From assembly GCA_008330645.1 (NCBI GenBank), contig VLTN01000049.1, positions 124,001 to 188,000 on the forward strand: 64,000 nt of DNA. The letters are read 5' to 3'. A program made the position numbers and the translations under genes. The notes under the pieces are model-generated. The model saw only the letters and a list, made by a program, of their open reading frames with translations, searched no databases and had not been told where the DNA came from. Numbering within the stretch: position 1 is the first letter of the stretch; each line of letters opens with the position of its first letter. Shown one piece after another: positions 4,978 to 59,200 of this stretch. Source of the stretch: Cafeteria roenbergensis. Lineage: Eukaryota; Sar; Bigyra; Bicosoecida; Cafeteriaceae.

Positions 4978-7900
4978 ATGGGCAATGGCGTGTCCTCTGC
5001 CCCAGTGGCAGTTGGCGGACACAGCGTACGCGTCAAGAAGCTGCTGGGGGAGGGTGAGCGAGGCTGCAGGAGGATGAGCTGGAACTGCCCGCATTCGACG
5101 CGCTGGGCCGCGCCGCTGCGCGCACCCCGAGAAGTTCGCCGCCCGCGGGCCCTGCGAGCGCATGCCACACGCTGGGCCGGCGCGCAGGGCGGGCGGGCGG
5201 GAAAGGCGCCGCTGCAGCGTGCTCCTGGGCTTGATCGCAGCCTGCGATTCCGAGCGTTCCCAACAACGCGTTTCCGCAGGCGGCTTCGCGTCGGTGTACC
5301 TATGCGAGGACACGGAGAGCGGGGAGCAAGTGGTGCTGAAGCGGATGCAAGTGCCGGCGGACCACGAGGACAACCTCATCGTCGCAAGGTCAGCCACGGC
5401 AGCCACCACTGGAGCCGATGCTTCCTGGGGCCGCCGGCGCTGCCTCCTGGCCCGCGCGGCTCCTCGCTCCCACGCGCGGCCGCTTGGCCGCGAGCCACTG
5501 CGCCACCTGCCCCAAGGCAGCGTGGTTCCTGCACCCGTGCCCCGCCTTTTGCTGCTCTCCGGAGGCGGGGCGGGGCCAGCTGCAGCCGGTTGCCATGGCC
5601 GGCGTTTGTCATCCGGGTTGCAATTCGAGGCAACACCGCCCGCGCCGCGGTTGCCCTCGGCAGCCTGCGTTCCCGCCCCCCCCCCAACCTCCCTCCGCTT
5701 CCCGGTCTCTGCTGTGTGGCCACCTTTTGTCGTGCGCTCTCCTCCTCGTCCCGGTTCCCTTTGCTCGCGGCGCGCAGGCGGGAGCTCGAGGTACTGCGCA
5801 CGCTCGCGCCCCACCCGCACGTCTGCCGACTCGTCGACTCGGCCACCTTTGGGCCCGGGCCTGTGCCCTCGGGCTGCGTGGTGCCTGGCGCTGGCGATTC
5901 CACGCGGCCCACCATGCACTTTCACCTGCTGCTCGAGCTGTTTCCGGGGCGCTCCGCCTTTGACGAAATCACAGCGCACGGCGTGCCCCAGCAGATCCCG
6001 GAGGCCGTCGTCTGCGCCCGCGTCTGCGACTGCGCCCTGGGCCTGGCCCACCTGCACGCCATGACGCCCCCCCTCGCCCACCGCGACGTGAAGCTGGAGA
6101 ACCTGCTGCTGCGGCGGGCGGTGGACCCGGCAGAGTACGGCGGCGACGGCTCCTCCGCGGCCGCAGCCCAGGCGGCCCTCTGCGACTTCGGATCCGCGTC
6201 CACCCTCGACGCTGTGCTCAGCGGCGCCCGCGCCAGAGCCGAGGAAGAGGTCGTCGCCCGGTCCACGACGCTGGCATTCCGCGCCCCCGAGCTCTGTGAC
6301 GTCCACAGCGGCATGCACATCGGCGTCAAGGTCGACGTCTGGGCGCTGGGCTGCCTGGCCTTCCAGCTCTGCTGCCGCCGCACGCCGTTCGAGGACTCCC
6401 AGGGCGTGCCCCACCGCATGGGCGTGCTGAGCGGCCGCTACTACTGGCCCAGAGCCGCCATCGACGCGTACTCGCCCGCCCTCCGCGCCCTCGTCGACGC
6501 CATGCTCACGCGGAACCCCGTGTCAAGGCCGTCCGTGACGGACGTCATCGTCCGAGCAGCGGCCACCATTCGCGCCTGGCCGTCGGAGAAGGACCGCCCA
6601 GCCCTCAGAGACCTCCTCTGGCAAGCTAGGCGGTCCGCCGGCACGGCCGCGGCCGCTCCCGGGGGCTATGGCACCGGGGCGGCTTCGGCAGGCAGGGCAG
6701 GGTCTGACTCGCTGGAGGACGTCGGCACAGGCAGAGCCGGGGGAGGCAGAGCGAGCATCCCGAGAGGCAGAGCCGCGAGGTCGGCAGCGGCGGCGGCAGC
6801 GGCGGCGGCCGCAGCGGCGGCAGGCGCCAGCCGTCGCGGCCGTAGGCCCGCGGGCTCGCGCATGCCAGCGGGAGGCCCCTTGTCCCCGTCTGGGTCGGCC
6901 GACACGGAGGACTCGGAGGGCAGAGCCGGCTCTGCCAGCAGGTCCCGCCGCCAGGGTTCGGGGTACGGCACGGGCCGGGTGGGGCTGGCGGTGGTGTCTC
7001 CTCCCGGCAGAGCCGGATCAAGCTCTGCCACGGACGCGTTCGGCCTTGCCATGGACCCTCTGGCTGCGCCCGCTGGGGCCGGCGCGGGGTCCGGCGCTGC
7101 GGTGAACGGGGGCGGGGCGTTCCACGGGGGCGACGTGGACACCGGATACGGTCCCTGGCCGGCATCGGTGTCGGCATCGGAGGACGACGACGCTGGGGCG
7201 GTGGGGGACGACGGGCACGTGAACGTGGTGGGGGGCCTGCAGGGCGGCCACAGCCGGGACTCGAGCAGGGACAGCTGGGCGGCCGAATCGGGGGCGCTGA
7301 CGTCTGCCCCCCACGGCTCTGCCCTGTTTGGGATTGGCCGAGCCGGTGGTGGTGGTGGTGGTGGTGGCGGCGTCGGCGGCGGCGGCAGCAGCAACGGGGC
7401 AGGCCCAGGCGGCGGGGCCGGCGGGACAGCTGGGGGAGCCACGGGCGAGGCGGGGTCGGCGTGGCGTGCCTCGGCCGCAGCCAGGGGCGTGATGGAGGGG
7501 TTCCAGGACCGCGTGCTCCAGATCGTGGGCAGGGTCAAGGGGCGACGGCGCAACAACCCTGCCGGCGGAGGCGGGGGCGCCGGCGGAGCGAACCACCGCG
7601 GCCTCCGCGGCCGCGACGGGACCGCGCCGCCGGCCGACTTTGCCAACGCCTCCACGGTGCAGCGGTGGGTGCTCAAGGCCACGTCATCGGCGCCGGGGGG
7701 CCCCAAGCCCAAGTACGTCCGGTTCCTGGTCCTGGATGCCTGGGCCCGAGCCACAGCGGGCGAGAGCCCCGTGCTCAGCGACATCGTTGCCAGCCTGGAG
7801 CAGCGCGCCGGAGCCACGGACGCAGTGGTGGCCGTCAAAGCGGCCGCCCTGGCCTTCCACCTCATCCACGACGGCCCCCCCGCGCTGGGCGTGGAGTCCG

Positions 7901-21804: not shown

Positions 21805-23380
21805 ATGGCGGCCGAGAAGAAGAAGGAGGAGGCCAAGAAGGTGGTCCCGCTGGATGAGTCGGACATTAAGATTCTCCAGAGCTATGTGAGCCAACGCGGC
21901 GCCGCGAGGCGTCTGCCTCGCTCCCGCTGAGGGAAACGGTGCGCGCGGGCGCAAGGGCGCCTGCGGCCATGAGCGTCACTGCCCCGCCCCGCGCCGCTCG
22001 CGGCCCGCCCCCTCGCCCCGAATCGTGGCCGCAGGGCCAAGGTCCCTACTCCGGGCAGATCAAGCTGCTGGAGAAGGAGATTGCGGACGAGATGAAGCGC
22101 GTCCGGGAGCTCATCGGTGAGCGCCGTGATCCGCGCAGCCTCGCCCGCGCCCCTGAGCGGCAACGGCGCGCCGCGTGCTTGCCTTGCCGCGTGTGCATCG
22201 TGCGCGCCACCCTTGCGGTGCTCGCCGCGCTCCCCGTCCCGCGCTTTGGCTGCCTCGCCGCGGCGCAGGTGTCAAGGAGTCCAGCACCGGACTGGCGCCG
22301 CCGTCGCAGTGGGACCTCGAGTCCGACAAGGAGATGCTGCGCGGGGAGCACCCCCTCCAGGTCGCCAAGTGCACCAAGATCATCAACGCTGGCCAGGCCG
22401 ACGCCAAGTACATGATCAACCTGCGCCAAATCGCCAAGTACGTCGTGGAGCTTGGCGAGAAGGTGCCGCCCACTGACATCGAGGAGGGCATGCGCGTGGG
22501 CGTGGACCGCCAGGCGCTCAAGATCCAGCGCCCTTTGCCCCCCCGCATTGACCCCACCGTCACGATGATGACGGTGGAGGACAAGCCAGACGTCACCTAC
22601 GACGACGTCGGCGGCGCCAAGGACGCCCTCGAGAAGCTCCGCGAAGTGGTGGAGCTCCCGTTGCTCTACCCCGAGAGGTTCGAGACGCTGGGCATCACGC
22701 CCCCCAAGGGCGTGCTGCTGTACGGCCCTCCCGGGACCGGCAAGACGCTGTCCGCCCGCGCCGTGGCTAACCGCACCGACGCAACGTTCATCCGCGTCAT
22801 CGGGTCCGAGCTGGTGCAGCGGTACATCGGAGAGGGCGCCCGCATGGTGCGCGAGCTCTTCCAGATGGCCCAGAGCAAGAAGGCCTGCATCATCTTCTTC
22901 GACGAGGTGGACGCCATCGGCGGCACGCGCTTCGACGACGGCTCCGGGAGCGACAGCGAGGTGCAGCGCACGATGCTGGAGATCGTGAACCAGCTGGACG
23001 GCTTCGACTCCCGCGGGAACATCAAGGTCCTCATGGCCACAAACCGCCCCGACACGCTCGACCCGGCCCTGCTCCGCCCCGGCCGCCTCGACCGCAAGGT
23101 GGAGTTCGGCCTTCCCGACCTCGCAGGCCGCACGCACATCCTCCGCATCCACGCCAAGACCATGAGCGTGGACAAGCACATTCGCTACGAGCTGCTCGCG
23201 CGCCTCTGCCCCAACACCACCGGCGCCGAGCTTCGCTCCGTCTGCACAGAGGCCGGAATGTTTGCCATCCGCGCGCGCCGCAAGACCATCGGCGAGCGAG
23301 ACTTCCTCGAGGCGATCCAGAAGGTCATCAAGAACTACCGCAAGTTCTCGGCCACGCCCAAGTACCTCGTCTACAACTGA
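21805..23380 (+). CDS. RPT1: 26S proteasome regulatory ATPase subunit RPT1
   Basis: Three exons, 21805-21885, 22035-22116 and 22269-23380 (donors GTGAGC, acceptors CAG), give 424 residues, the normal length. RPT1 is one of six AAA+ ATPases in the base of the 19S particle that unfold substrates and open the 20S gate. Visible features are the N-terminal coiled coil with the IK-LEKEI heptads, [10 protein letters not shown], an OB-fold segment ([10 protein letters not shown]), Walker A GPPGTGKT at 207-214, Walker [10 protein letters not shown] (D266, E267), the second region of homology [20 protein letters not shown], and the RPT1-type ending [12 protein letters not shown]. The closest match among the six RPTs is animal PSMC2. 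Each intron junction restores conserved sequence (SY|GQG, LI G|VKE). Confidence 0.97.
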
Positions 23381-27526: not shown

Positions 27527-28744
27527 TCATGCCTGCCCACTGGGCCCCAGCAGGCCCCTCGCGCGAGCCTTGCCCACCACCCGCAGCGCCACGTCTAGGC
27601 TCGATCGGGCCTCCTCGAGCGCAAGCAGAAGCCTGCCAACGTGGTCCCCGCTCCCCCCCTCCACGTCCTCCTCCGTGAGCGACGCGGCCACGCGCTCGGC
27701 GATCGACGCCAGATCCGTGGCGTCGCCGGCGCCACTTCCGATGGACGCATCGGCCTCTGCCGTGCCCTCCCCGGCTGCGTCGCCGGCGCTGCCAGTTTCG
27801 GCTTTGACGCCCACGCCGTCGACCGCCCGCAGCCTGCTGCCGACGTCCTTAACGGATCTGAGCGCCGCCTCCAGAGCAGGCTCGGACGTGGAACACGTGC
27901 GCAGCACCGCCCGCGCAGCGCGCAGGGCGACTGGCACACTGCCGCTGCCGCCGCCACTAGCGCCGCCGCTGCCGCCACTGCCACTAGCGCCGCCGGCTCC
28001 GCCCGCATGCCCGCCAGCTCGGGCCCTGCGGGCCGGCAGACGGGAACGAGGTGCTGCGGCGCCGTCTGCGGTTTCGCCCTTGCCACTCTTGACCGGCGGC
28101 GACCCCCCGGCACCTGCGCCAGCGCCGGTCTGGGCGCGATGGCGCGGCGAGGCTCCAGGGGCGGCGGCCTGCCCCGCGGGGCGGCGAGCGCGCGACTGGC
28201 CGTATCCGCTGGAGGACACCTGGCCCGCCGCGCGGTTTTGCCGCCGCATTGGCCTCTCTGCTCCCTCCGAAGGGCCGCTGGCGCCGGCCGCAAGACGGGG
28301 TTTGGGCAAGCGGGACTCTGGCTGCGACTCGCCGGAGACTCGGTCTTGACCGGACGGTGACTTGGCCTCGGAGCCTGCTGCGTCCGTGGCGGGCCCATCA
28401 GCCGATTGCTTGCCGCTCTTGGCCGACGTCGGCGCAAAGCCGCCGCGCGGCCTCCGGCGCCGCTGGGTGGGGGGTGACTTCGCGCCGACTGGCGAGTGAC
28501 CGTGGCTTGGCGACGACCCGCTCACCACCGGGTCGCCCCCCTGTCGCAAGCGCTTCACCGTGGACTCGGCACGACGCCGCAGCGCGTGGACCTCCTTGGT
28601 GTGGTCGCGGGTGGAAGTGAGCTGCCCCCTTCGCGCGGTTTCGCGTCGCTTGTGCGCCCACCACTTCCTGTCGACCGCGAAGAGCTCGCAGGTTCCGCCC
28701 AGGAGCAGGAGCGACGGGGTGGGCGGGAGGGACGAGGGCACGGA

Positions 28745-28776
<32 letters not shown>

Positions 28777-30593
28777 ACGGGGCGCGGGCGTCTGTGCTGG
28801 CGACTGCTGCCGCCGCCGCCTCGGCCGCCGCTGCTGCCGCCTCCTCCTCGGCCCGCGGGTTCGGCACAGCGGCCGGCAGCGGGTGGCCCCGGAACAGCAG
28901 CTGCACCGCCGTCGGGGAAGTTCGCATCCCCACCAGAAGTCGCGCCGCTGCCTCTTGGATGACGTCATTGCAGCCAATGGTGGCCTCCCTGCGGCCCGCG
29001 GGCGTTGCCGGGGCCCCGGGCCCCCCTCGAAGCAGCCACACCCGCAGCGTCACGTGGGCGGGCGATCGCCAAACACCGGCGAACGCCGAAACCGCGTGAC
29101 GACCAACATCCTGGCAGAGCTTGCGCGCCTGTCCGGGCAGCCACGTAGCAACTGCCGCATCCATGCTGTGCGCAGTGACACATCCGGCAGAGCCACTTCG
29201 TGCTGCAGAGCCCGAGGCACCACCGCTCGTCTCGGAGGACGCAGGCTCCACCGCGCCTCCGACCCCGGCCCGCCGCGCCAGCTCTGCCACAAAGTGCCGT
29301 GCGAAAGCCGCAGCCAGCAGCGCAAAGTCGTTGTCTGCTGTGAGAGCCGGCGCGGCAACGGCCAAAAGTGCCGCCGCCTCGGCCTCCCCGAGCGCGTCCC
29401 CGGGCCGCCGCGCCCACCGCTCTTGCGATGCGTCGTGAGACAGGCCCGCGTCTCGGGGTGACCCGGCGGCAGAGCTGGTGGAGGCAGAGCTGGGAGCGGC
29501 GCGGGGCGATCGGCTCTGCGCGCCAGCGACGGCGATAGCATCAGCCGGACTCGACGGCGCTGGATCGGCACTACCGGCACCCGTCGGCGGCGCGCCTGCC
29601 TGGGCTGGTGATGCGCTTGCGATGTCGTGAAGATCGGCCTGCGACAGAGAGAGCGACGTCTCCGCCTCGTCGTCGCTGCAACGCTCCTCCACTACGGCCA
29701 GGCCCGCTGCGTGCCCGCCGTCGGGGCGGATGCCCCTCCCTGCGCTGGGCGAGCGCGGCACGGCTCTGCCCAGCAGCGGCGGCGCGCCCTCCCGGCTTGG
29801 GCTGCCAGGCGGGGCTGGGGCCGGCTGGCGGGGGCTTGCCTGGTCGCGGCCTTGCGAGGGCCGGGCTGCGGCCGCTGCCTGCGGCTGGGCAGCGGCGAGG
29901 GGCGCGGGCCTGCGGCCGCGGGGAAGGTCGTGGCCGTCTTCGAGCAGCGCTGTGGCCGTGTGGGTGTCGAGGAATGCCTCGGCGAGCCGCTGCAGAGGAG
30001 GCCAGTCGCGCCACAGCTCCCGCAGCAGGGGGTGTTGGCGGAAGGCAAGCTGCAAGAACGCAGCCGGAAGCCGGTCGGGGCGGCGGGAGCCTGACCGGCG
30101 GTACCGGGCGAAGCGCGGGTCTTGCGCAAGCGAGGCGGCGGCACGCACGGCCTCGACCACGAGCGCTTCGCAGCAAGCCGCCGCGAAGACGGAGCCATCA
30201 GCCTGCGCGCGCAGCCGAAAATTTTCCCGTCAAGCGAGGGTTGGAGGAGGAGGAGTGTGTGTGTGTGGGGGGGGGGGTGGCAGTGGTTGTAAACTGGGCA
30301 TGGTGGCCGCGGTGCAGGTGCAACTCGCCAAAGCAGCGAACGGCCAACTCGAGCGCGCGCAGCGCGTCGTCAAAGCGGGGCGGCGCAATCGCCTCTGGCC
30401 GACGGCAGCCACGGCAAAACAGGGCAGGCCCCAGCCACGACGAGGAGCAGCATAGCGCACTCACCGTTGGCTGGCGCCCGCGCTGGGCCTGCCGGACAAG
30501 CTGCGCGTGAATTGCTCGCAGGGGCAGCGTCAGCACCCTCCCCGCGTTGCTGAAGCGCTGCTCGACCTCGCCTGCGCTGTCAGGCAGTGCCAT
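27527..30593 (-). CDS. H2A-like + H2B-like histone-fold doublet with ubiquitin-like domain and long basic tail
   Basis: Two exons, 30593-30465 and 30202-27527 (donor GTGAGT, acceptor GCGCGCAG), give 934 residues. Residues about 13-120 align by eye to histone H2A: LPLRAIHAQLVR for FPVGRIHRLLRK, then VFAAACCEALVVEAVRAAA for VYLAAVLEYLTAEILELAG, then LPAAFLQLAFR for IPRHLQLAIR. The splice joins helix 1 to helix 2, which supports the gene model. Residues about 305-425 align to H2B: helix 2 FALLAAAFARHFVAELARRA, VTAHSMDAAVATW, then LPGQARKLCQDVGRHAV (398-414) for H2B LPGELAKHAVSEGTKAV. Residues 427 to about 550 resemble a ubiquitin-like fold (VTLRVWLLRGG, ATIGCNDVIQEAAARL, VQLLFRGHPLP), interrupted by poly-Ala. 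A Ser/Arg/Lys/Pro-rich tail follows. It is presumably a nuclear chromatin protein. Domain calls need profile searches. Confidence 0.78.
28738..28775. repeat. GGC triplet run (poly-Ala in the histone-fold protein)
   Basis: A run of GGC/GGA triplets reads as alanine on the minus strand, inside an insert of the putative ubiquitin-like domain. This is an ordinary GC-rich triplet expansion. Confidence 0.85.
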
Positions 30594-30977: not shown

Positions 30978-32737
30978 TCACTCGAACATGTCAACGGTCA
31001 CCTCGACCCATGCCTTCATGGCGCGCCACCGTTCGGCCTCGCTGGGAGACGCCGCGCCTTCGGCAAACGCCCCCAAATGTGCACTCAGCTCCCGCATGCT
31101 CGGCTTGGTCCGCTGGCGATGGACAGGGTCACCCGTGGACAGGGCACGCACGAGCCAGGGCACGCCTGTCTGCGGACATGGCACCAAGCAAGGAGCGACG
31201 CAGCAAACCAATGAGGCACGGAGCCTGCGCGAAAGCAGACCTGTGCTGGTTGAGCAATGAGAACCCGCACCTGGAAGAGCTGCGAGCCTGCTGGATTCCC
31301 GGGGCGATGCTCGACGCTGCTTACAGCGTCTGGGGCTTTGAAATCCGCGCCGCGGTCGATGAGGAGCTGCGCCACGTCCCTGTGGCCTTTCCAGGCGGCC
31401 GCCATCAGCGCCGTGCACCCATACTGCGATGACGCATCGACCGACCAGCCACACCGCCCCGCATCGACCCCTACGCGAGAAGCAAAGGCCCCGCTCCCCG
31501 CCCGACGTCGCGCCCTCCCGCCAGCCGACCCCGCTCCGACCCGTCCCCGGCCTCGCCGGCCCCGCCGCTGCCCCCGACGACACTCGCGGGCGCGGCACGC
31601 CTCCCCCCGCATGACCGCCCCCGCACCACCACCACCCACGCGCCCACCCCCGGCCCGTCCGCCCCGCGCCTCCCCGAGCCCTGATCCGACCGCCCGGACT
31701 CGGACGTCACGCGGGGGCGGGCCGCCCGCAGCGGTGCCGCATCGCTCGCACGAGGGCGGCACGGGCGGGTCAGTGGCGTCGCGCTGCGCGCTGCGCTCTC
31801 ACCGTGTTGGCGGCCTCGATGTCGGCGCCGCGGTCGATGAGGAGCTGCGCCACATCCGTGTGGCCATTCATGGCGGCCATCATCAATGCGGTGCTCCCAC
31901 CCTGCGTTCACGCATCGGCCGACCAGCCACATCGCCCCGCATCGACCCCTACGCGAGAAGCAACGGCCCCGCTCCCCGCCCGACGTCGCGCCCTCCCGCC
32001 AGCCGACCCCGCTCCGACCCGTCCCCGGCCTCGCCGGCCCCGCCGCTGCCCCCGACGACACTCGCGGGCGCGGCACGCCTCCCCCCGCATGACCGCCCCC
32101 GCACCACCACCACCCACGCGCCCACCCCCGGCCCGGCCCCGTCCGCCCCGCGCCTCCCCGAGCCCTGATCCGACCGCCCGGACTCGGACGTCACGCGGGG
32201 GCGGGCCGCCCGCAGCGGTGCCGCATCGCTCGCACGAGGGCGGCACGGGCGGGACAGTGGTGTGGCGCTATGCGCTGCGCTCTCACCTTGTCGGCGGCCT
32301 CGATGTCGGCGCCGCGGTCGATGAGGAGCTGCACCACATCCTTGTGGCCATGCCCGGCGGCCAGCGTCAACGCGGTGTTCCCGAACTGCGATCACGCATC
32401 GGCCGACCAGCCACATCGTCCCGCATCGACCCCACGCGAGAGGCAACGGCCCCGCTCCCCGCCCGACGTCGCGCCCATCCGCCAAGCCCATGGCAGCAGC
32501 CCTCCGCGAGCGCCGCCGTCCACGGCCATGGTTTGCAGTCAGCTACATTTCAGAACGCACTGCGGAGCGCCCTCCCGTCACAGGCCGCAGGCGCTTTGAG
32601 GCTCGGCGCCGTGGCGCAAGCTTGTTCCTCATGCTCACGCCGAATTCCGCGTTCACGTCTTGGCCATCATCCAAAGCCTTTGTCACCGTCTCCACGTCGC
32701 CAGCAGTGATGGCAGCCCCGAACGCAGTCAATGCCAT
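30978..32737 (-). CDS. ankyrin-repeat protein, one repeat per exon
   Basis: Five exons: 32737-32639, 32385-32287, 31901-31803, 31423-31325 and 31169-30978. The first four are each exactly 99 bases, begin and end in phase 0, and encode 33 residues; total 195. Exon 1 is the N-cap repeat (AFGAAITAGDVETVTKALDDGQDVNA). Exons 2-4 are canonical repeats, for example NTALTLAAGHGHKDVVQLL and IDRGAD. Exon 5 supplies a C-terminal cap and tail (TGVPWLVRALSTGDPV). Donors are GTGAGC, GTGAGA, GTGAGA and GTAAGC; acceptors are all GCAG. Ankyrin stacks bind other proteins, and no partner is indicated. Introns 2 and 3 are nearly identical, showing recent tandem duplication of an exon-intron unit. Confidence 0.88.
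31424..32286. repeat. tandem exon-intron duplication in the ankyrin gene
   Basis: Intron 3 (31424-31802, 379 bases) and intron 2 (31902-32286, 385 bases) are almost the same sequence, differing by one 6-base insertion and a few substitutions. The 99-base exons between them are also similar. The first 90 bases of plus-strand sequence beyond 32386 (3' part of intron 1) match as well. Confidence 0.95.
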
Positions 32738-44211: not shown

Positions 44212-47200
44212 ATGGCGGCCTCGCGGCCGCCCGCAGTGGTGCCGCTGATCGACTCGGTTGAGGATGGCCACGGGGAACAGAAGCCCATCCTCAACTACTA
44301 CCGCGACCGCATCGTGCAGAGCACGGTGAGGCGCTTGCTGGCCTGTGGCCATGGCGCAGGCGCGCGGGGCGAGCGGCGCGGTGCGAGCGACCGCGGAAAG
44401 CAAAACGCCCCGCCTGCCGCCACGAAGCCCGCGCTCGCCGAGGCGGGCCGGCCGCCGCGGCCTCTCATCGCGCGCCACCCGCCCACTGTATCGTGCCTTG
44501 CAGGTATGGCGGGCCAGTGGAGACGCCCACGGAGTCCGCGACCCAGAGGTTAACTTCGTTGCGCACGGCAAAACGTTCATGGTGAGCAGCAGCAGCGCGG
44601 CCAGAGCCCTCGCGCCGCCGCTCGCGTCCTGCCCCGCCCGCCGCCAGCTCACTGCCGCCATTCCCGCTGCTGTTGAGGGGTCGGACTCGCCCGGCCGCGA
44701 CAGCGCCGGCAGTTGACGCGGGCTGGCAGCGGCCGCCTTTGTTTTCGGCGCCGCCAGCACGCTCGCCAGCTGGGGTCGCGAGTGCCTGCTGGGGACGCCC
44801 CAGCGCGGGGGTCTGGCGCGGCTTGAGCGCCTCGGCAGCTGGTGCGCAGCCGGGCTGCCAGGTGACGCTGCGCCCCTGCGACCCGCGCTCCCAACCGCAT
44901 TGGCCGGCCCGGTGCTGACCGACTGCCTGCCTCCCACTCCGCGCTTCCAATCGCCGTGTCGCCCATGCGCTGCCTCCCGACAGTTTGCACCGCGAAGCCT
45001 CGGGCTCTTCGACGAGACCTCGTCCATCCGCCAGCTCGCGGTATGGCTCGTGACGTGGTCCTGGTTCGACCGGCTGGTGCTCCTGCTCATTCTGGCCAAC
45101 TCGGTCACCCTGGCGATCACCGACTACAGCGCCACGGCGGTCGACCCGGTCACCATGCTTCCCGACCCCGGCCGGTCTCCTCGCAACGCCATCGGCGAGG
45201 CGCTCGAGCCGGTGTTCCTGTGGTCCTTCACCGTGGAAATGGTGCTGAAAATCGTCGCCATGGGCTTCGCGCTCTCGCCCGGCTCCTACCTGCGCTCTGG
45301 GTGGAACGTCCTGGATTTCATCGTCGTGGCGTCCGCGCTGCTGTCAGCCATCCCGGGCGTGCCCAACGTGGCCGCGCTGCGCGTCCTGCGGGTGCTGCGG
45401 CCGCTGCGCTCGCTCACGGTGCTGCCTGGCATGCGCGTGCTTGTGGGGTCGCTCCTGGCCTCGCTGCCCGAGCTGGCGTCCGTTGGCGTCCTGCTCGGCT
45501 TCGTCTTCCTCCTCTTTGGAATCCTAGCGCAAAACCTCTTCGCGGGTCTGCTGCCACGCCGCTGCCGCCTCACGCCCTACCCGGTGGAGGTACCTCTCTC
45601 CCACCTCATCAACCCCTCGGCCGACGCGTTCAGGGCGGCGGCGCTGCCGCAGGGCTCCGGCGCGGCGGCCCCAGGCAGCACCTGCTACCCCCAGCTCAAC
45701 CTCTCGGCATCGGACTGTCGGGACGGCATCACCGCCGATGGGATGCTGACCCAGCCACTCTACTTCGAGGCTATGGCTCGGCTGTACGATCCGCCGTCGC
45801 TCGTGGCTGACCCAGTCACCGGCGTGCCCGCGGTGGCGGACCCGGCCGCCACCGCCTACGCGCTCAGCTGGACCGACGCGGCGTCATACGCGACGGCGCT
45901 GACGTTCAACCGCACCCTATTCCCTTACTGCGGGGCAGGTCGTGCGGTCGCTGGCTCTGCCAGCCAAGGCGGAAGCGTCTGGGAAGACCTCTACCTGCCT
46001 GTGCCCGCGGCGGCCAGCGACGTCATCGGGCTGATCGCCCCGCGGCTTGCGGCAGAGAGGCTCACCGACGCCGAAACCGCGGCCCGAATCCGCGCCTCTG
46101 TCGCCGCAGCCGCAGCCGCCGCGGCTGCCGGCGGACAGGACGGCGTGGCCGGCCGCTGGCCAGCCTCCGGCCTGCCGCTGGAAAGCGACGCGTGGACCAC
46201 CGACGACAGCCCCTGGCTCCCGGCCCGCGCTTGCGTCTGGCCCCTGGCAGCTGAGGACCAGCGGCTCTGCAACCGCAACGGGGGCACGGCCTTTTCCGGC
46301 AGAGCTTGCTCGGAAGGGTTGGCGCTGCCGCCGCAGCTGCCTCTGTCGCCCGCGACGTTCTGGCGCGGACCCCTCCCGGCAGGGCCGGACTCCAGCGGCG
46401 GCGGGATCGACTCCTCGCTGGCGGCAGGGTCCGGCCTTTCAACGGACACCTCGGCATTCGCGTGGCTCTCGGCGCTGACCGCGCCTGCGCCGCTGAAGCT
46501 TCCGGGCGGCGGCCTGCAGCCGGCCGCCGGGCCTGCGGACGTCATTCACCCGGCTCTGCAGGGCATCGGTGCGATTCCCGGGTCAGTTCTGCCGGAGAGC
46601 GTGCCCGCGGCGTCCAATGGGTCTTGGAGCGCTGCGGCGGAGGCGGCGGCGCAGGCGGCGGCGGCAGCCGACCCCTCGCTCGGCATCGCCCCGCCACCCT
46701 ACGCCCGGTCCGCCCGGCACTGCGGCAGCGACTACGACCCCGCGGGCAACCCCCGATTCGCGACCGGCAGAGCCACCACTGTGTCCGTGGCAGAGAGCCC
46801 TCGGCACCACTTCGGGCTGACCTCGTTCGACTCGGTGCTGGTGGCGTTCCTCGCCACGTTCCACGCCATCACGCTGGAGGGGTGGACGTCGTACTTTTAC
46901 GAGGTCTCCAACGGGTACAGCGCCCTGGCTGCGGCCATATTCTTTCTAATTCTGGTCGGGTTCGGGTCCATCTTCCTGCTGAACCTGACGCTGGCAGTTC
47001 TGTTCGAGAACTACGAGTCTGCGCGGAGCGCTGAGCGCGCCGCTGCGGCCGCACGCCTCCGCGCGCTGGTCCGCATCGAGGAGCGCGAGCGGCGGGAGGC
47101 GGCCACGCAGGCCGCCCTGCTGCGCGTGCTGGAGGCGGACGAGGAGCGGGAGTGGCGCCGGTACGTCCGGGCGCGGCTGCTGGCGGTGCGGCGGATTCGA

Positions 47201-50200
47201 CGGCTGCGGCGCCTGCTGCGGGTGAGAGACGCGGCGCTGGCCGCCGCGGCGGCGGACCCCGCGGCGTACAAGGCGGCGTACGCCCGGTGGGAGGCCGCCA
47301 TGAAGGCCTTCGAGGCCGAGCAGACGGTGGACGTCGGCGCACGCCGGCCCTTCTCAGGGCCGCTGGTCGCCGGCGGGCCCAGCAGCACCGGCAGCGTCAT
47401 GGTGGTCGCGGGCCACGCCGGGTCGCAGCGCTCGAGGCCCCACCCGGGGGACGCTGCTCGGGCAGACACGCTGCCGGAGGCGGCCGGGGTTGGCTCGCGG
47501 TCGGGGTCGGCCGATCGCGCCGGGCACGGGAAGGCGTCGCCACGGTCGGCTGGCCCGGACGACGACGTCACCAAGGCCGTGCTCCCGGAGGGGTCCGACA
47601 TGAGCGCATCCTTCCTGGTCACGGGCCAGCGGACGAGCCTCCATGGCGGCCCACGCCACTGGTCGGCGGTTTCGTCGTCTATCCTGAGTGACGAGGCCGC
47701 CTCCCCAACGGCGAGAGGCGCCCCGGATCGGAGCGGCGCAGGCAGGGGGGGAGGAGATGCGGGGGTGCCCCACGGCTCCGGCTGGGGGCTTGCCACTGCG
47801 CTGGAGGAGGGGAGCGAGCCTGACACGGGGGCCAGCACGGCGAGCAGTGGCCGCGAAGGCCCCGGCAGCGGCTACGAGAGCCACGGCAGCGGCTCTGAGA
47901 GCCACGGTAGCGGCGGTGACGTGGACGTGTCTGCTGGCGCTGCTGGCGCTGCTGGCGCTGCTGGCGCTGCTGGCGCTGCTGGCGCTGCTGGCGCTGCTGG
48001 CGCCGCACGAGATCAGCAGGCCGACCCGATGCTCCAGCGGGCAGCCGTGGACATGACCACCGGGCTTGTCCTGCTGCTTCCTGACAAGCCCCTCGACAGG
48101 CGGCGCCGGGACGCCGAGGCCGGCGCGGAAGGCGACGAGTCGGCCCCAGCCGAGGCGGGCCACGGCAGCGAGAGCCTCGACGACAGCCTGAGCCTTTGGG
48201 ACGACGAGTCGCTCGAGGACGAGGCTGCGGCTCTGGTAGCAGAGCTGGGGGGCCTGCTGGGGCCTCTCGACCAGGCGGTGTCAGAGTCCGAGTGGTCGTC
48301 CCTGGGCTCGCTGGCCAGCTCCGCGTCGCTCTCCGAGGGCAGCGTCGGCGGTGGCCTGACTGGCGCCTCGGGCAGCGGCCCGCTGGACCCAGACGCGCTC
48401 CCCGACGCCGCCTCTGACTTCCCTGGCCGGGCTCGGTCCGGAGCGCCGCCCTCGTGCGGCAGCAGGAGCGGATACGGAAGCAGGGCCGACGACCCTGCCG
48501 GATGGCCCACTCCGCAGCCCCCAGGGTCGGATGGTGGCCGCTCAGGCGTGACTGGCGCTCGAAGCCACGTCAACTTGGGCCACCCCCCAAGCGGGTCGTC
48601 GTGGCAGACGCGAAACCGCAGCTCTGACGGCGTGCCCCCCAGTTTCGCTCTGCCGCCGCTGGCTCAGGGCGAGCCGGACGGCCCGCCTTCGGCTGCAGTC
48701 GAGAACGCAACCGCAACGACGACAGCAACTGCAGCCGGGAGCATGCGGCGGAAGCACTCCGGATCTCGGCGACACCAGGCCTGCGACGCGCCCAGACGCA
48801 CCAGCGCAGCCCGCAGCGCCGCAGGGTCTCGCTCCGGCAGTGCAAGCTTCGCCCACGCCGGTCACAGCAGAGCCCTCCCTTCAGGCATTTTCTCGCTGGA
48901 GCCGCGGTCAGAGCACACAGCCGCAGGCCAGGGCCTGCCCGCGGGGCCGTCTGCCGATGCGGCACTGCCAGGGGTCGGGTTGGCGCTCGATGCGGGCAGC
49001 GGCGTTGCCAGCGCTCCAGACGACTCCGACGGCAGCGACGGCACGACGCAGCGCCACATTGCTCGTCCATCGGGGCCGCGGTCGGAGGGGACGTTTCGCC
49101 GGCAAGGCTCTGCCCGCGCGCTGGCCGGCTCCTCGCTCCAGCGGGGCGACCTGGCGCTGCGGCGGGCAACTGCAGAGCTACGCACGGCTGCGGCGACTTC
49201 GCAGCGCGAAACCGTCGCGGAGATGTCGGTCCTTCAGCGGTTCCAGCGGGGAGTTCGCACTGCCATGAGGCAGCGTCAGCGGGGCACCGCTCTGTTTGCG
49301 TCGGTGGTGGGGGAGGCGCTCCGGCGGAAGCGGGAGAACGATGCAGGGTCCAGCAGAGCCAAGGCTGCGGTTTCGTCGGCGCCGCTTCGCCGTGCGGGCT
49401 CGGCCGAGGTGCGCCGGCCGCGAGGGGGCGGAGCAGGGAGCATCGGCCACTCCTGGATTGCGAGTGCGAGCGTGTCGCGCTTTGGCGAGCTGTTCGGTCG
49501 CCGCGCGTCGCACGGGTCAGCAGGGCCAGATGCAGGCGAGGGGGCGTCCCCTGTGGCGTCGGGCGGCGTCGTCGCCGAAAGCGGTCCCCGCGTTGCTCGA
49601 GCAGATGCTGCCAGAGGTGCTGTCAGTGGAGCCGTCAGTGGCGCCGCCAGCGGTGCAGGTTCTGGCGCTGGTGCTGGCGGCAGCGCGGCGTGGAGAGCCG
49701 GCTTTTCGCGCTCGCAGAGCAGCATGGGCCCAAGGCGACGCAGCGGCGACGGCAGCAGCAGCGGCGGCAATCCGGTGCGTTCCCAGAAGGATGGCGTCCG
49801 AGGCGCGAGCGACGCAGGGGCCAGGGCCAGGCCGGGAAGAGCATCCTCCCAACGGACGATTGGGTCTCGCGAGCGCAACCGCAGCCGCACCGGGACCGAG
49901 CCGGGCGGGCCAAAGCTCCGTTCACCCGCTCCCAGCGGCCCGCTCTCCGAGCATGGGCGTGGGAGCAGGGTGGGGGGGCGAGCCTCTGCCGAAGCACGGC
50001 CTGTATCGCAGCGGTTTCGACTGGATCTCGCCCTGTCTGATGCGCGTGCCCAATCGAGGGAAGTGGCTTCGGCAGAGCCGCAAGAGGGGCCGTATCGGCA
50101 GAGCCTCTCCCAGTCGCGTCGCTCCCTTCGTCGCTCGATGTCGAAGCGCAACGCCGTCGACAGAGCGATGAAACGTCGCTCCATGGCCGAGTCCGACGCA

Positions 50201-53200
50201 GCAGCGACGCGACTGACGGCCTCCCAGGCGAACGCACTCGCCGCGCATCTGAGCAGGGAGGTCAGCGCAGGGCCGCAGGACGCCAGCGATGCCTCGGACG
50301 TGCTGGCCGCGCAAGCATCCTCTCGTCGGCTTGGCGGCGTGCGGTCAGACTCTGTCAGCCAGCGGCGCATCTCACCTGGGGGCGGGGGCAGGAACGGCGT
50401 CTGGGGCGGGGACGGCGGCGGGGGCGGTGCCACCTCCGGCGCTGAGGGGTTGCCCTCGTCGGGCAGCCGTCGCTCCATCACAGCAGGGCCAGGCGTCCGT
50501 CGCCGGTCGATTGAGGAAGTTGCCGGCGCGAAGGGGGTGCCTGCCGCTGGCGTGGCCAAGGCGGGAAGCCGTCGCAGCCTGTCCGCCGCCGCCCGTCGCA
50601 TCGGCGACTCGTCAAGCCGTCGCGACCTGTCCGCCGCCGCCCGTCGCATTGGCGACTCGTCAAGCCGTCGCGACCTGGCCGCTGCCGCGTCGCGCCGAGC
50701 CTTCCAGAACAGGCTCGGCTTAACGCCAGGCGTGGCAGCCGAGGCCAGGAGGCAGAGCGACGCGGCAAGGCCGACGCTGGTCATCGATGAGTCTCAGCCG
50801 CTGTCCCCGACAGCGGCTGCGGCGGCATCGGCTTTGCTCGGCCCGGGGACTGCAACGGCCGTGACTGCAGCTGCTGCCGCGGCCGGTGACCCGTCAACGG
50901 GGCGCGGCTCTGCCAGTGGGCAACGCACGGCCGCAGCCGAGCCCGCGCGCGCCCGAGGAGGCGATGGCAGCGCGACCGCGCCTGGCCACGAGCAGGCCGC
51001 CAGTGCGCCCGCGGCGCGGGGCCTGGTCGGCAGCAGTGGCGTAGTGGCTCTGGATTCCGGGGGTGCGACTGCCGGCGCGTCCGTCGGCGACATGGCAGGC
51101 GTCGCCGCACGGCCGTCATCGCGGGCCCTGTCCGGCTCTGCCTCCCCAGGGAGCCTGTCACTTCTTCGCGCGCGATCGATGAAGCTCACGAGGGTCACCG
51201 ACGAAACCGCAGCGCACCTCGGAATCCAGCGGCGCGCAGACGAGCGGATGGCAGCGTCGCAGGCCGGGTCCGGAACGCCTTCTGCCAAGTCGCCCGCACC
51301 GGCCGGGGGCGTTCTGGCCATGTCGGCTCTGCCACCGCGGCCGCGGTCTGGAGCGGGCAAGAGCTCTCGGGCGCTCGGGCAGGGCGATGCGCCGGCCGCG
51401 CCACCCGCGTCAATTGGCTCTGCGAGGGTTCGCCGCGCACGCACGTTCGCGGTTACCTCGGGCACGCAGCACAGAGCCGTTGGGTTCGCCCCTGGGACTG
51501 CGGGCTGGAGCGCAGTCAACGCTTCTGCTGGGCACGTGTCCGCTGGCGGGGATGTTGGCCAGGATGGGCACCACTCGCTTCGAGCAGGAGCAGGCGCTGG
51601 TGCGGGCGCCGCAGGCGGCAGGCAGCAGGCTGGCAGCGGCGCCGGTGACCGCCTCGCCGCCGTGGCGGCAGTGGCAGCCGCGGCCCAGACTGCGGTCGCC
51701 TCCCCCGGCCTCGCCGGCGGACCTGTCGGGCTGGGCGACGGGCAGCCCTCGCCGGCGCGCGGCAGAACGCTCTACCCGCGCCGACGCCGCACCTCGTCCT
51801 CGGAGGGCCATAATGACGTTCACTCCCGCGCTGCCACCCTCGAAGATGCCGCGCTCGATGCGATCGGCAGAGCCGAATTTGGGTCGGCTGGCCAGCAAGC
51901 GCGGGTGGAGGCTGGCAGCTGGGCCTCGTCGGCCCGGGTCAGCCCATCGCCCTTCAGCAAGGCGAGAGGGGCCCGCCCAGGGGGCGCGGAGGCGGCGCCG
52001 CTGGAGCCGCAGTCGCTCACCCCCGGCGAGTGGAAGGCGCGCGCCTCGAGGCGGCGCCTCGTTCGACGGCGCCTGCGCGCCGCGGCGCGCGTGACGATGC
52101 TGGCAGCGGCGTCGGGCCCAGGCGCGTGGCCCTCGTCCGGCGTGCAGTCCACCGCACGCCCCGTGTCCTCGGCGGAGCCAGCCCCGATGAGCTCCCGGGC
52201 TGCCTCCCCAGCAGCGTCGTCGGTGCCTCACACGGGCTCCCCGTCCCCGCTGGCCATCGCCCCGGGCGGCCCCGGGATCGCGCTTGTCCCGGCCATGTCA
52301 GCCGAGAGCCAGTCCGCGGCGGGCCTCGCTGCGGCTCTGCACCCCACCGGCCGGTCCCGCCTCCTGGCCAGCATTGCACGGCGGGACGTGACGGCGTCTG
52401 CGGAGAAGGGCGAAACCGCCTTGGCAACGGCCGCCTGGCGCGCGGAGCTGGCGCAGTCAGGGCGCCGCACCCCCGTCTTCGTCCGCGGACCCTGCGACTG
52501 CCTCTTTCGCGACAGGAAGGGTGGGCACGACCGGGGGTGTTTTTCGAAGTGGCTCTGCCTGGTGTGCTGCTGCGTCCCGTTCTCGCAGCGCCGCGGCTTC
52601 ACCATGACCCCCGCCAGGCGGCTGGTCGACAGAGGCCAGATGCCCAAGGTGCCCCCGCGAAAGGACGTGGAGCAGGCCCACAGGGAGCGAAGAGACCTGG
52701 CAGAGCGAGTGACTTCCGGCAGAGCCGGATCCCCGCGCAAGCAGGGGTCGTCCAAGCGCGGAGGTGCGGGGCGACACAGGCGCCCGGCGGGGCGACGGCT
52801 CAAGGCCGGAGAGAGCACCGCGTCTCCCAGGGACTTGCCGCGCAGCGACGGGGTGCGAGTCGCGCCACCCTCCTTGACAGCTGCTCCCGCCAGGCAGGGC
52901 TCGGACGTGTCTGCGGACCCCAGTTCCGACCGCAAGCCTGGGTCCCGAAGAAAGGACTCCCCAGGGCAGAGCTCGGGCACCTCCGCTGCGGAGTCGCGCG
53001 CGCCTGCGCGAGGCGGCGGCCCGCTCTCCCCGGCTCTGGTGGCGGTGTCGGCTCAGGCCGCTTCGGCCGGCGCGCCTCCCAGCTCCAAGAGCGACCCCGC
53101 CTTGCTCCCAGTGCGAGACGAAGGGCCGAGCCGCGGCACGCCCGAGCATCGCCAAGGGGTGGTGCCTGGGTACGGCGCCGTCCGGGAACCCGCGAGCAAG

Positions 53201-56200
53201 GCCCGCCCGCAGCTCGACTCCTCCGAGCAGGCGCCGGAGCAGGCCCATCGCGGCCATGAGCCGCCCCAGCGGGAGGACCGGCAGCCCAGACGCGACAGCA
53301 GCGGGTCGGCTGGCGGCGGGGGCGGCCTCGCGTTCGGAGCGGCCGTGCCCCGAGGCGCCGCTCGGCGCGCCAGTGAGCTCAGCGTGCCGCGGGTCTCAAT
53401 CGCCGGCTCCATGGCACGGGCCTCCGAGGCGTCCGGTGGGGGACAGCCGCACCACCACCACCATCACCAACACCACCACCATCGCCACGGCGGCGGAGGC
53501 GGCGATGGAGGCGCGGATGGAGACGAGGAGGAAGGCCCCACCGCTGCCGACGTCCTGCCGCTGGCATCGTGCCGCGACAAGGTCGTCGTGGCTCTGCAGA
53601 CCGTGGTGTCGTCCTGGTGGTTCGGGCTCGGCATCGTGCTCGCCATCCTGGTGAACACCGTGGTGCTCGCGCTCGACTCGTACCCGGTCGACACGGAGCG
53701 GGCGCGGGTCGCGGAGATCCTCAACTTCATCCTCAGCGTGGTGTTCCTGCTGGAAATGCTGCTCAAGCTCGCGGCAATGGGCCCGCGGGCGTACTCGCAA
53801 GACGCCTTCAACGTGTTCGACGCCGTCATCGTCATCATCTCCGTCGTGGAGGTCGCGGTTTCGCCGCCTGTATTCCTGGGTGGCAGCGCGGCCGGAACGG
53901 ACGCGGGCGGGGTCTCGGCGCTGCGCACGTTCCGCCTGCTGCGCATCCTCAAGCTGGCGCGGGCGTGGGTGTCGCTCCGCGTGCTGCTGGCAACGGTCCT
54001 TGCGTCGCTCTCTGAGGTGGGGAACTTTGCCGCCGTGACTCTCCTGTTCGTCATGGTGATCGCCCTGTTCGGAGCCTTCAGCTTTGCCAACAGGTTCCGC
54101 TTCAACGCCAAGACGGGCCAGTCGCTAGCAATGACCGACCCGGCCTTCAGCTCGGCAGAGCCGTCTCCGATCAACTTTGACGACCTCTGGTCGGCCTTCG
54201 TCGCGGTCTTTGTCGTGCTGGCCTCGGAGCAGTGGACGGACCCGTGGTTCGACGCCTGGAGAGCGTCGGGCCTGGGCGGCGCGCTCTTCTTCGTCGTCGC
54301 CGTTGTGATGCTCCAGATCGTCCTCCTGAACCTCTTCCTCGCGATCCTCCTGTCCAAGTTCGAGGGGCTAGAGGAGAAGACGGAGCTCGAGAGGCGCAGG
54401 CGGCGGAGGGCCCTACGCCGCATCGCTCGCGCCAAGGGCACGGCCCCGCCGAGCGTCGCCCTCTCGGGCACGGCAGACGACGAAACTGCCACTGTGGGCA
54501 CCGCGACGGTGGGCGACAACTCCGTCCTCCGCTTCCACCTGGACGGCGCGCAGCCCGACGACGACGCGGACCTGCCGCCCCCGCGCAACCTCTGGGAGCG
54601 GCTCAGCCGCGTGTTCGGGTCGCTGCGAGACCCACAGGCCCTGGAGGTCGCCTCGGCCACCAACGCCCGGCTGGTAGAGCAGTGGGGGGGCGTGTGGCGG
54701 GTCAAGCAAACGTTCGCCCGCAGGGCGATGAAGTTCCGAGCCGCCCGGCTGGCGCTCGCAGCCAAGCGGGCAAAGCCGGCGGTCGGGCCTGCGCCGCCCG
54801 CCGATGCGCCGCTGACCGTGGGACCGCCGGCTTTGGCGGGCAACTCTGCCAGTGCTGGCGCTCCGGCAGAGCCGCGCAAGACGCACTTCGTCTCCAGGTC
54901 GTCTCACCCCCGCGTGGGCGGCGGCGTCGCTGTGATGCTGCCCCTGGTGCCCGGGGCGCGACCTGGCAGAGCCGCGTCGGCAGAGCCAGAGGCCGCTTCG
55001 GAGGCCGACTCCGCGACCGCTTCGGCCGCAGCCGCGGCCATCGCCGCTGCTGCGGCTGCGGCCGGCATCACGGGCGGCTCTGCTCCGCAGTCGCCGTTGC
55101 AGACCCCATCGTCGCAGCGCCGAGCCAGGCGCCGGTCCATGCGACCGACCAGCGCGCTGGGCGCGGCGGGCGACGAGGCGGGACCCAGTCGCACCTCTGG
55201 CGCAGGCGGCGGCTCGATCACCGACGGCACTGCCTCTGCGGCAGCGCGAACCGACGGCTCGACGGCAAGCCAGCCGGGCTCCCCGTCAGCCGCCCATCGG
55301 GGCACCTCCCTGGCTCTTGCGGAGGGCGAGGAGCCCCCGCCCCCCGAGAGCCCGCTTCACGCGGTGTCGGGGCGGAGAGGCAAGCGGCGACGGAGTGTCA
55401 CGCGCGTCCTTTCCCAGCAAGCGGTGGAGGCGGCGGGAGGCGGCGGCTCTCCCCGACACGCCTCCCGGGCGATGGCCGGGCAGAGCAGGCGGGGGCTGAC
55501 GGCTGCAGGGCAGAGCAGGCGGGGGCTGACGGCTGCAGGGCAGAGCAGGCGGGGCCTGGCGGCAGAGCTTGCCTTAGGGGATGCCGCCGCGGAGAAGACG
55601 TCGGCCAGCTCGCCCCACAGCACCAGCAGGCCCAGCGGTGCTGGCAAAGCCGGCGGAGGCGGCGCCCGGGGCTTCGCTAGCAATTCCCTAGGCGCCAGCA
55701 CCAGCCCGATCTCTCGGCACCGCCGCTCGCTGGCCGGGAGCGGCGGCTCTGCCGGAGCCCGTCCCCCGTCGGCACTGGCTGTGGTGCGCGCGGGTCCAGC
55801 CGCCCGCAGGCAGAGCCACGGCAAGGCGCGTCGCCTGTCCGGGGACGGCAAGCGACGGCGCCCATCGCTCACGTCGGCGACCGCCGCGGGCCTCGCCGGA
55901 GCAGAGATCGCTACGGCCGGTGGCGCAGCAGGAGGCGGCGCCGGCAGGGCCCGGCGACCGTCGTCGTCGCAGTCGGGGCCGCTGGGCCTGCGCCCCCAGA
56001 AGCTCCAGCAGCAGCGGCCGCGAGGGCTGGTCGCTCCGGGACATGCGGGGCGGGCTGGCGCCGGATCCGACCCCACGGCAGAGCCACCCGTCGGGGGAGG
56101 GTGCTGCCTGGCCTGCATCTCGTGCTGGGCGCTGTGCTGCGCTTGGCGGCCAGCCGAGGACCCGGGGGAGTCGGCGCCGCCGATGCGCCGGGCCGCCTCG

Positions 56201-59200
56201 CTCCGCATGCTGGCCGACGCAGCGGGCGAGGCGGATCAGGGGCGCGCGTCGTCTGAGCGGGGATCGAGAGACGGAGCGTCGCTCGGCAACGCTGGCCGGC
56301 GGGGCCGGCTGCCCAGCGACGCGAGCTTGCGGAGACTGCCCCCGCTGCCCCCTCCAGCACCGCCCCGCCAAGGCCACAGCCACAAGACGCCCACCACGGC
56401 CAGCCTCAGCCAGCGGCCAGTCGCCGGCCCCTCGCACCCGCATGCAGCGTCGCCGAGCCGCGGCGGGCGAGGCGCCGCGCGCGTGCACCCGGCAGTGCCC
56501 TCGCCTTCCCCGCCGCCGCCTCCGGCTCCGTCAGCGCCGTCCGCTCGCGGGGGCGCTGCCGGCGCTGCCGCGGCGCATCAGGGCAGGCGCGGCGCCAGAG
56601 CGTCGGAGGCGAGCGCAGGGGAGCGGCCGGCCGGCTGCTCCCCGCCGGCCGGCCCTTCGGAGGCTTCGCCGCCTGCTCAGGTGCCGGTGGACGCCGAACC
56701 GGCCGTCTCCAGCTCCGAGAGCGATGATCTCGCCGCGGCCGGCGGCACGCCGCGCGCCCGCTTGCCTGGAGTGGCGGAGGGCTCTCCCTTGGAGGCCGGG
56801 CCGCCCAGCGGGCCGACGTCGCCGCTCTCGCGGTCCCCGGGGTCCTCTCGCCGGCGCGGCCTGGCGGCCATGCAGAGCGCAAGGTCGCTGCGTCGCTCCC
56901 CCGGCCGCCGCCGGCCGGTGGGCGCTGCCGCCAGTTCTCGCCAGCTTGGCCGCTCGCCCGACGCCGGCGCTCCGGACCCCGTTGCGCAGCTGTTCAGCGG
57001 GCGGAGCAGGCTTGCGAGCGCTGACGGGTGGCCTGGAGCAGGAGGCGGAGGCGGCCACCATGCTGCCGCGAGCGATGCCGGGCTGACAGGCCTCGGGCTG
57101 GGCTCGGTTGTGCAGCAGATCAGCGCCACTGCCAGCTTCCGGGAGGACATGGGGGCCGCGATGCGACGCATCCGCGCCCGAGAGTCTCTCGGGGGGCTGT
57201 CTACGGCCGGGGGCATCACGTCGGGCGAGGGCGGCGTCGCGACTGGGGCAGCTGTGGGTGGAGGCGGCGCCGCCGGTTCGGGCAGGCGGGGCGGCACTGG
57301 CGCCGGCGCCGCCGGGCGCGGCGTTGCTCAGGCGAGGGTGGGCGCTGCGAGCCTTCCAGCCGGCCACTCTGGCTGGCAGGCGAGACAGCTGCAGGCAGAG
57401 CAGAGGGCCGCTGCGGGGATTCACGGACGCCGCCCCTCCGCTGAAGGCAGGCAGGCTGAGGCCGCTGCCGGGCAGTCGATGCGATCGGGACTCGCGGGAG
57501 ACGGGCTGCTGATGCGCGCCGTGGAGGAGCTCGGAATGCCCAGCGGCAGCCCTGGCCTGCCAGCGGCCGCCGCGGGCTCCGGCGGCCGGGCTGCTGGCGT
57601 GGGGCAGGGGGAGGGGGCAGCTGAAGGAGCGGCGGCCGGCCAGCGGGTCGGCGGGTCGGCGGGGAACCACCGCGACGGCGGCGGCTCGTGGCGAGAGCCG
57701 GTCACTCCGCGCATCCTCCGCAACGGCTTCGGGATGCAGTTTGGGCGCAGCAATGAGATGTCGGCTGCGGGCGCGACGGGCGCCGGGGCTGCCGCTGAGG
57801 GCGTTTCCCCGCCGGCTCCGGGTGCCGACGATGCGATGGAAGGATCTGTGACGGCGGCCACGGCCGCCGCAATCGTGCAGCGCAGCCTGGCTGCGGAGCG
57901 GGCGCTGCAGCGGTCGACGATCCACCAGTCACGGCTTGCGGACGGCGCGGGCCGGGGGCCGGCCGGCGCCGGCCGCGACGGGCTGCGACGTCGGCGGCGG
58001 TCGCAGTCTGCTGCGTCGCCCGCTGGGGACGTGGGCAGCGCTGGTCGCGGCTCGGCGCCCCGCTCCGGGCAGCGCGTCCCGCTGAGAGCGCAGGCCAGCG
58101 CAAGGGCCGTCTTGTCGCGGCTGCCTGGGCCTGCGTCCCCTCCCGGCGCCGAAGCGGATCGCAGCGGCGATGCTGGCAGCGTGGACGGGTCCACCGGCAG
58201 CGCCGGCGCGGCCGCTGCGGGCGTGTGGGGTGCTCCGCACGGGCAGCGGCTGTCCGTCGAGTCCAACTCCGCCGAGCAGAGCGACGGCGAGGCCCTAGTG
58301 GTGTCCCGGCCGCGGGCGGTGGTGCCGCACAGGCGGCGCAGCGACGCGCCGGGCGCAGTCGAGGACGGGGCCGGCGTCGCCTCCGCAGTGCTGCAGCTGA
58401 ACACGGGCGGTGCCAGGGACGGCGGCAAGGAGGCCTCCGGCACATCGCATGCCTCTGGCGGCGCCCGCGGCGTGGCGTGGGAGGACGGGGAGTGGGATCG
58501 GAAGATGTCCAAGTCGCGGCGAGAGCTCGTGTCGACGATGCGGGCGCGGCGGGAGGAGGCCGAGGCCGAAGACGCCGACCTGGAGGCCGCGGAGCGGCAG
58601 CGGCGCGGGCCCCGGACGGTGGAGGAGGCGCTGGCGCGGCTGCCCCGCAGGGAGGCGGCTTCGCTGCGGAAGGAGCTCGCCTTCTGGTGCGTGCCCATCA
58701 CGAACCCGGCGCGGTCGGCGGCGCTGCTGCTGACGTCGTCGCCCCGGTTCGAGAACGTCATCCTCGTTCTCATCGTGCTCTCGTCGGTCGTGCTGGCCGT
58801 GGACTCGCCGCTGCTCGACCCCGCGTCGGGCCTGGCGGTTGCGCTGGGCATCCTGGACCTCGCGCTGACCGTGGTGTTCGGGCTGGAGATGCTGTCCAAG
58901 CAGCTGGCTCGGGGCCTGCTGCTGCACAGGGGCGCCTACCTGCGCTCCCCGTGGAACGTGCTGGACGGCACGCTGGTGGTGATCAGCGTGCTGGCAGCGG
59001 CGTCCACGGGCGTCCAGTCGCTGCAGGGGCTGCGCTCCCTGCGGGCGCTGCGGGCGCTCCGCCCGCTCCGCGTGATCGCCCGGAACGAAGGCATGCGCGT
59101 CGTTGTCAACGCGCTCTTCTCGGCCCTGCCGAGCATCGCCAACGTGTTCGTGGTGTTCGTCCTGTTCATCCTCATCTTCGCAATCGTGGGCGTCGGCTTC

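Follow-up and report, generated by a model that had tools for sequence, protein, structure and literature searches.

A conserved Cafeteria roenbergensis gene joining an H2A-like fold, a probable H2B-like fold and a ubiquitin-like sequence in one protein

A gene of Cafeteria roenbergensis encodes a protein in which an H2A-like histone fold and a probable H2B-like fold are separated by a long linker and followed by a ubiquitin-like sequence. The fusion gene is real, single-copy and conserved. Judged from its sequence, the protein is more likely to regulate or scaffold chromatin than to package DNA as a histone, and our leading, still tentative, interpretation is a docking double histone fold (an H2A-H2B pseudodimer) that would carry the ubiquitin-like domain and would not be a subunit of the nucleosome core. 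The analysis centered on a stretch of 64,000 nucleotides (the window; positions 124001-188000 of contig C49), with a GC content of 66-79% in 2-kb steps, and was extended to the genome (36.30 Mb, 167 contigs). Table 1 shows the features of the gene and its product.

Table 1. Coordinates of the fusion gene and of the features of its predicted protein, in window positions.
Feature	Position	Strand	Residues	Remarks
Exon 1	30465..30593	-	1-43	H2A-like alpha1 (LPLRAIHAQL); same 43 residues in P0002
Intron (GTGAGT...GCGCAG)	30203..30464	-		262 nt; P0001 appears to share acceptor and phase
Exon 2	27527..30202	-	44-934 + stop	
H2A-like histone fold	29957..30548	-	~16-125	Split by intron; PDB matches mostly H2A; hhalign to H2A
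Arginine-rich insertion, H2A L2 loop	30071..30112	-	~74-87	Alignment
Acidic linker motif (VVEExxSDxEAExSxSLS core)	29624..29707	-	209-236	Net charge -7; core conserved 3/3
Probable H2B-like histone fold	29069..29431	-	~301-421	Low-complexity L2 insertion; PDB, hhalign; full-length scan not significant
H2B-like alpha3-alphaC	29075..29179	-	385-419	Full-length-scan alignment; well conserved 3/3
Ubiquitin-like domain	28667..29056	-	~426-555	Ala/Glu-rich insertion (~493-537) before last strand; profile scan
Basic segment (WWxHxRRxxARRGxLTSxR...)	28532..28666	-	556-600	Strongly conserved
Short motif SSGYGQ	28196..28216	-	~706-712	Conserved; window/P0001 and P0001/P0003 alignments
C-terminal helix-like segment 1	27809..27931	-	801-841	Conserved
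C-terminal helix-like segment 2	27530..27655	-	893-934	Conserved

Joining 30593-30465 to 30202-27527 on the minus strand produced a single open frame of 934 amino acids. The junction 30465/30202, proposed in an earlier note on this DNA, thus gives one frame, and it appears to be supported by the acceptor in P0001 and by exon 1 of P0002, two database proteins described below. Two H3-type genes in this genome have introns with similar ends. When residues 44-600 were compared with the genome, the sole match was the gene itself (15 candidates scored), as expected of a single-copy gene. The genes around it are eukaryotic and encode a Vps54-like protein, a protein kinase, Rpt1 (26S proteasome subunit 7), an amine oxidase and a multi-domain cation channel. 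A viral origin was set aside because P0001 had no match in viral contigs, the neighbors are eukaryotic and the gene bears an intron; scans of viral contigs with the H2A and H2B of this genome, and of genome contigs with P0001, found no relatives. An ankyrin repeat is encoded in a separate frame directly upstream (31088-31762, minus strand). Its inclusion in the fusion gene was rejected, since the overlapping frame stops at 30978 and the sequence preceding the ATG is not the same in the window and P0002, with the 43 residues of exon 1 identical. Elsewhere in the window, a single frame of 5479 codons (44900-61339, plus strand), whose two halves together carry five Ion_trans stretches and a GPHH motif, is by its predicted domains a giant voltage-gated channel, and a tRNA-Asp gene (7573-7651, minus strand) lies within the span of an opposite-strand kinase frame of 3175 codons.

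Three database searches for homologues, each scoring the best 8000 candidates, returned two diverged homologues, P0001 (786 aa) and P0003 (612 aa, lacking the N-terminus), and the near-identical P0002; the third of these searches added nothing. P0001 was 43% identical to a 600-residue query over 93% coverage (E 3.2e-105). Its start is an apparent intron read-through, and its homology to the window begins exactly at the acceptor (..AQ/AD..). A single frame of P0001 contains both histone-like parts, H2A-like and H2B-like, and for this reason the fusion is no assembly artifact of this genome. The fused order is present in two of the three sequences (window, P0001 and P0003), the third being the truncated P0003. 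P0002 matched all the residues of exon 1 and, past the intron, follows a different frame; by eye, the frame shift relative to the window maps to the intron's C-run/CA part. Over 382 exon-2 codons P0002 and the window differ at 12 positions, nine of which are third codon positions in the frame proposed here. The share predicted from opportunity counts is 47%, and changes silent in the frame of P0002 are invisible in this comparison.

The earlier note had read an H2A fold at the N-terminus, and comparison of profiles confirmed this well supported prediction. The hhalign score against an H2A profile was 35.8 over 77 columns, a value that none of 120 shuffles reached (maximum 18.2). In a scan of the full-length protein the H2A profile aligned to residues 21-109 with a score of 38.8 (maximum of 60 shuffles, 18.2), and against profiles of the genome's own histones the H2A-like part scored 30.1 for H2A and 9.2 for H2B. 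The top match in a PDB search was H2A (E 0.098) and 40 of 41 matches contain H2A. With a two-sequence profile H2A was present in 58 of the best 60 of 178 matches, the second-best match being a non-histone (E 0.035). Helix alpha1, encoded by exon 1, was seen in the window and P0002 only, and the L2 arginine that precedes the LQLA helix (R87) is retained in the alignment. The folds of NF-YC/NF-YB, NC2, POLE3/4, H3, H4 and archaeal histones were set aside, as the best score of other families was 13.5 for the H2A-like part and 15.6 for the H2B-like part.

The H2B fold that had been proposed for residues 305-425 is probable. In its favor, two PDB searches each found three matches and in both an H2B came first (E 0.16 and 0.2), alpha3-alphaC aligned in the right order, and the trimmed profile scored best with H2B among eight profiles (20.7, reached by one of 120 shuffles). 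Against the histones of this genome the H2B-like part scored 21.3 for H2B and 10.5 for H2A, and a single control of 150 exceeded the window segment with the genome's own H2B profile. Another reason to hold the fold probable is that an H2A-type fold requires an H2B-type partner. The competing explanation, that this stretch resembles H2B by chance and the protein has an H2A-like fold and a ubiquitin-like domain with no doublet, is unlikely on balance. It draws on several of the same comparisons: the score of 20.7 was obtained after a loop insertion had been cut by hand, and the H2B profile, which the scan of the full-length protein placed where expected, scored 16.7, within the range of 60 shuffles (maximum 19.7) and no better than the best match of the H3 profile elsewhere in the protein (17.0). 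When single untrimmed segments were used, the score was reached by none of 150 controls for the window, 10 for P0001 and one for P0003, with a slight advantage for the test segments, most of which were 110-134 aa long against 100 aa for the controls. The H2B profile scored the ubiquitin-like part of the window at 13.3, equal to the H2B part of P0003, and the latter scored 17.0 with the H2A profile.

Pfam and NCBIfam searches found no histone family match in the protein and no histone match in the PDB searches had E < 0.01; the H2A-like fold was recovered by hhalign and the H2B-like fold more weakly. Ranks were weak throughout when single-sequence HMMs were run on 540 window frames together with P0001, P0003 and the spliced protein. 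With H2A, P0001 was first (E 1.1) and the spliced protein third, and with H2B the order was the Rpt1 frame, the exon-2 frame and the spliced protein. Within the window, the HMMs of H2B and H3 and two of NF-Y type all matched the last part of the Rpt1 frame (22157-23377, plus strand) best, which calls for caution in interpreting weak histone scores.

The remainder of the protein had been described as a tail of 500 residues. A tail is present, and the description overlooked a ubiquitin-like sequence directly after the C-terminal helix of the H2B-like part, as well as the conserved basic and helix-like segments that follow. The assignment of a ubiquitin-like sequence is well supported by profile scores. 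In the full-length scan it was located at residues 427-485 with a score of 28.9 (maximum of 60 shuffles, 16.5), and the segments of the window, P0001 and P0003 scored 16.4, 20.7 and 20.1, all above the maximum of 150 controls (13.3; likewise 100 aa long), the profile having been put together by hand from known ubiquitin-like sequences. Ubiquitin, USP14, UBLCP1 and BAG1 have in common with this part the beta1-beta2-alpha1-beta3 pattern and an LLFRG-type strand; this part differs from them in a long insertion ahead of what is presumed to be its last strand, whose alignment is uncertain, and in having no Gly-Gly end and no Pfam match. Four ubiquitin sequences of this genome compared with a three-sequence profile of the domain gave a weaker result (22.0 over 19 columns), and against the window segment they scored 12.3, a value exceeded by at least 5 of the 150 controls. 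With a single-sequence ubiquitin-like HMM P0003 ranked second (E 7.1). Among the matches listed by PDB searches covering this part there was no ubiquitin-like domain, a masked full-length profile had zero PDB matches, Pfam and NCBIfam found no ubiquitin family in the protein, and none of the 25 places listed in a genome scan with PF00240 is on contig C49. An agenet-domain match to residues 461-537 of P0001 (E 0.0055), the sole PDB match below 0.01, spans the presumed last strand of the domain and the basic segment; it was absent from the three matches of the three-sequence profile and was taken as chance. The PDB matches to the C-terminal segments (best E 0.071) were considered chance as well.

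Taken together, these features are consistent with a mechanism in which the diverged H2A-like and H2B-like folds would pair in cis across the flexible linker. The resulting pseudodimer could then dock, presumably in the nucleus, on chromatin or other proteins with histone folds, and hold up the ubiquitin-like domain. That domain starts about 11 residues past the position equivalent to the lysine of H2B (K120 in animals) at which ordinary chromatin is ubiquitylated. The net charges are +8 for the H2A-like part, -1 for the H2B-like part, +8 for the basic segment and +19 for residues 601-800 of the tail; the basic segment and tail may help the protein to bind nucleic acids, and until it binds, the basic face of the H2A-like fold may be covered by the acidic linker motif. 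With a linker of about 175 residues (126-300), pairing in cis is tentative. A linker of this length with a conserved acidic motif would also suit a protein in which each fold pairs with a separate partner, either the ordinary histone of the complementary type or another molecule of the fusion protein, forming a chaperone- or clamp-like bridge of two histone dimers. We give this arrangement a small chance of being correct, as the presence of complementary types in one chain is most simply explained by pairing in cis.

The genome encodes ordinary H2A, H2A.Z, H2B, H3 and H4, and histone clusters on three contigs (C73, C27 and C54) contain many similar copies of H3, H4, H2A and H2B. Outside the clusters there are an intron-bearing diverged H3 variant (L011, C5), an H2B variant (L012, C53) and H2A.Z (L014, C55), and two other proteins had histone-family matches below the Pfam cut-off (L015 on C46, 25.4 bits; L016 on C43, 24.8 bits). 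The matches listed for the genome, 40 to PF00125 and 12 to PF16211 (the C-terminal docking domain), include none on contig C49, and the docking domain is absent from the fusion protein. By eye, about two of the eight acidic-patch residues are kept in the fusion protein, and both L2 loops carry insertions. The lack of the docking domain, the loss of most of the acidic patch and the loop insertions make a double-histone-fold chromatin or scaffold protein likelier than a nucleosomal histone.

Loss of the nucleosome surfaces would also be expected of a cytoplasmic scaffold unrelated to chromatin, whose double fold serves protein-protein contacts as the H domain of Sos does. In Sos proteins the order is H2B-H2A, ahead of the exchange-factor domains. 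The precedent of Sos1 (PMC13088155) lends this reading some weight; it is nonetheless rather improbable, since the strongly basic segment and tail suggest nucleic-acid binding.

A true nucleosomal variant, in which the fused pair takes the place of the H2A-H2B dimer in a special class of nucleosome, with the ubiquitin-like domain as a built-in, irremovable H2B ubiquitin mark, would fit the clear H2A type, the probable H2B type, the retained R87 and the position of the domain next to the H2B-like alphaC, but the nucleosomal features lost, the charge of the H2B-like part and the abundance of ordinary histones make it quite improbable. Ordinary ubiquitylation of H2B may occur in this organism, as hinted by a BRE1-type match that is marginal (28.2 bits; cut-off 27.9). 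The idea of a hard-wired, permanently "ubiquitylated" H2A-H2B dimer in chromatin, its mark unremovable beside the ubiquitylation site, is improbable. The earlier proposal of a covalent H2A/H2B dimer for specialized chromatin is likewise weakened by the missing docking domain, the depleted acidic patch, the L2 insertions and the long linker, and it took no account of the ubiquitin-like domain. What stands of the doublet that it described is the H2A-like fold and the intron-bearing gene, with the H2B-like fold probable.

The docking double histone fold that we favor can be compared with known proteins. Eukaryotic double histone folds include Sos1, ABTB2, SPT3 and the animal HSIH proteins, and animal proteins with double histone folds are reported in both orders (Miyake et al. 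2026, as cited in PMC13088155); the H2A-H2B order is therefore not the novelty that it had been taken for. Marseilleviridae doublets also combine H2A and H2B types in one chain, but they are viral, nucleosome-forming and in H2B-H2A order (PMC11222145). The fusion protein falls outside this group by its reversed order, intron-bearing gene, eukaryotic neighbors and the lack of a match to P0001 in viral contigs. ABTB2 (Cca3) likewise has a diverged double histone fold within a multidomain regulator, with ankyrin repeats and a BTB domain, and is listed for animals (PMC13088155); no ankyrin or BTB Pfam domain was found in the fusion protein or P0001. The H domain of Sos1 is also a low-identity H2A/H2B pseudodimer within a multidomain protein, but Sos1 is a Ras exchange factor with H2B-H2A order and, in the text consulted, no ubiquitin-like domain is described (PMC13088155). 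The order in the fusion protein differs, and its exon 2 is without a Pfam domain. The HSIH proteins share the H2A-like and H2B-like folds in one chain and are described as single-domain, animal and at least 60% identical to core histones (PMC13088155), whereas the fusion protein is from a protist, is 18-25% identical over aligned columns and has a long linker and further domains. The titles, opening lines of abstracts and passages surveyed contained no description of this architecture, the survey for ubiquitin-like domains being narrow. Relative to that literature, what is new is the protist setting, the long linker and the ubiquitin-like domain. A conserved fusion in a free-living stramenopile would extend H2A/H2B-like double folds beyond animals and Capsaspora, the range given in PMC13088155, and would provide a natural system in which to study the role of a tethered H2A-H2B pair bearing a ubiquitin-like domain.
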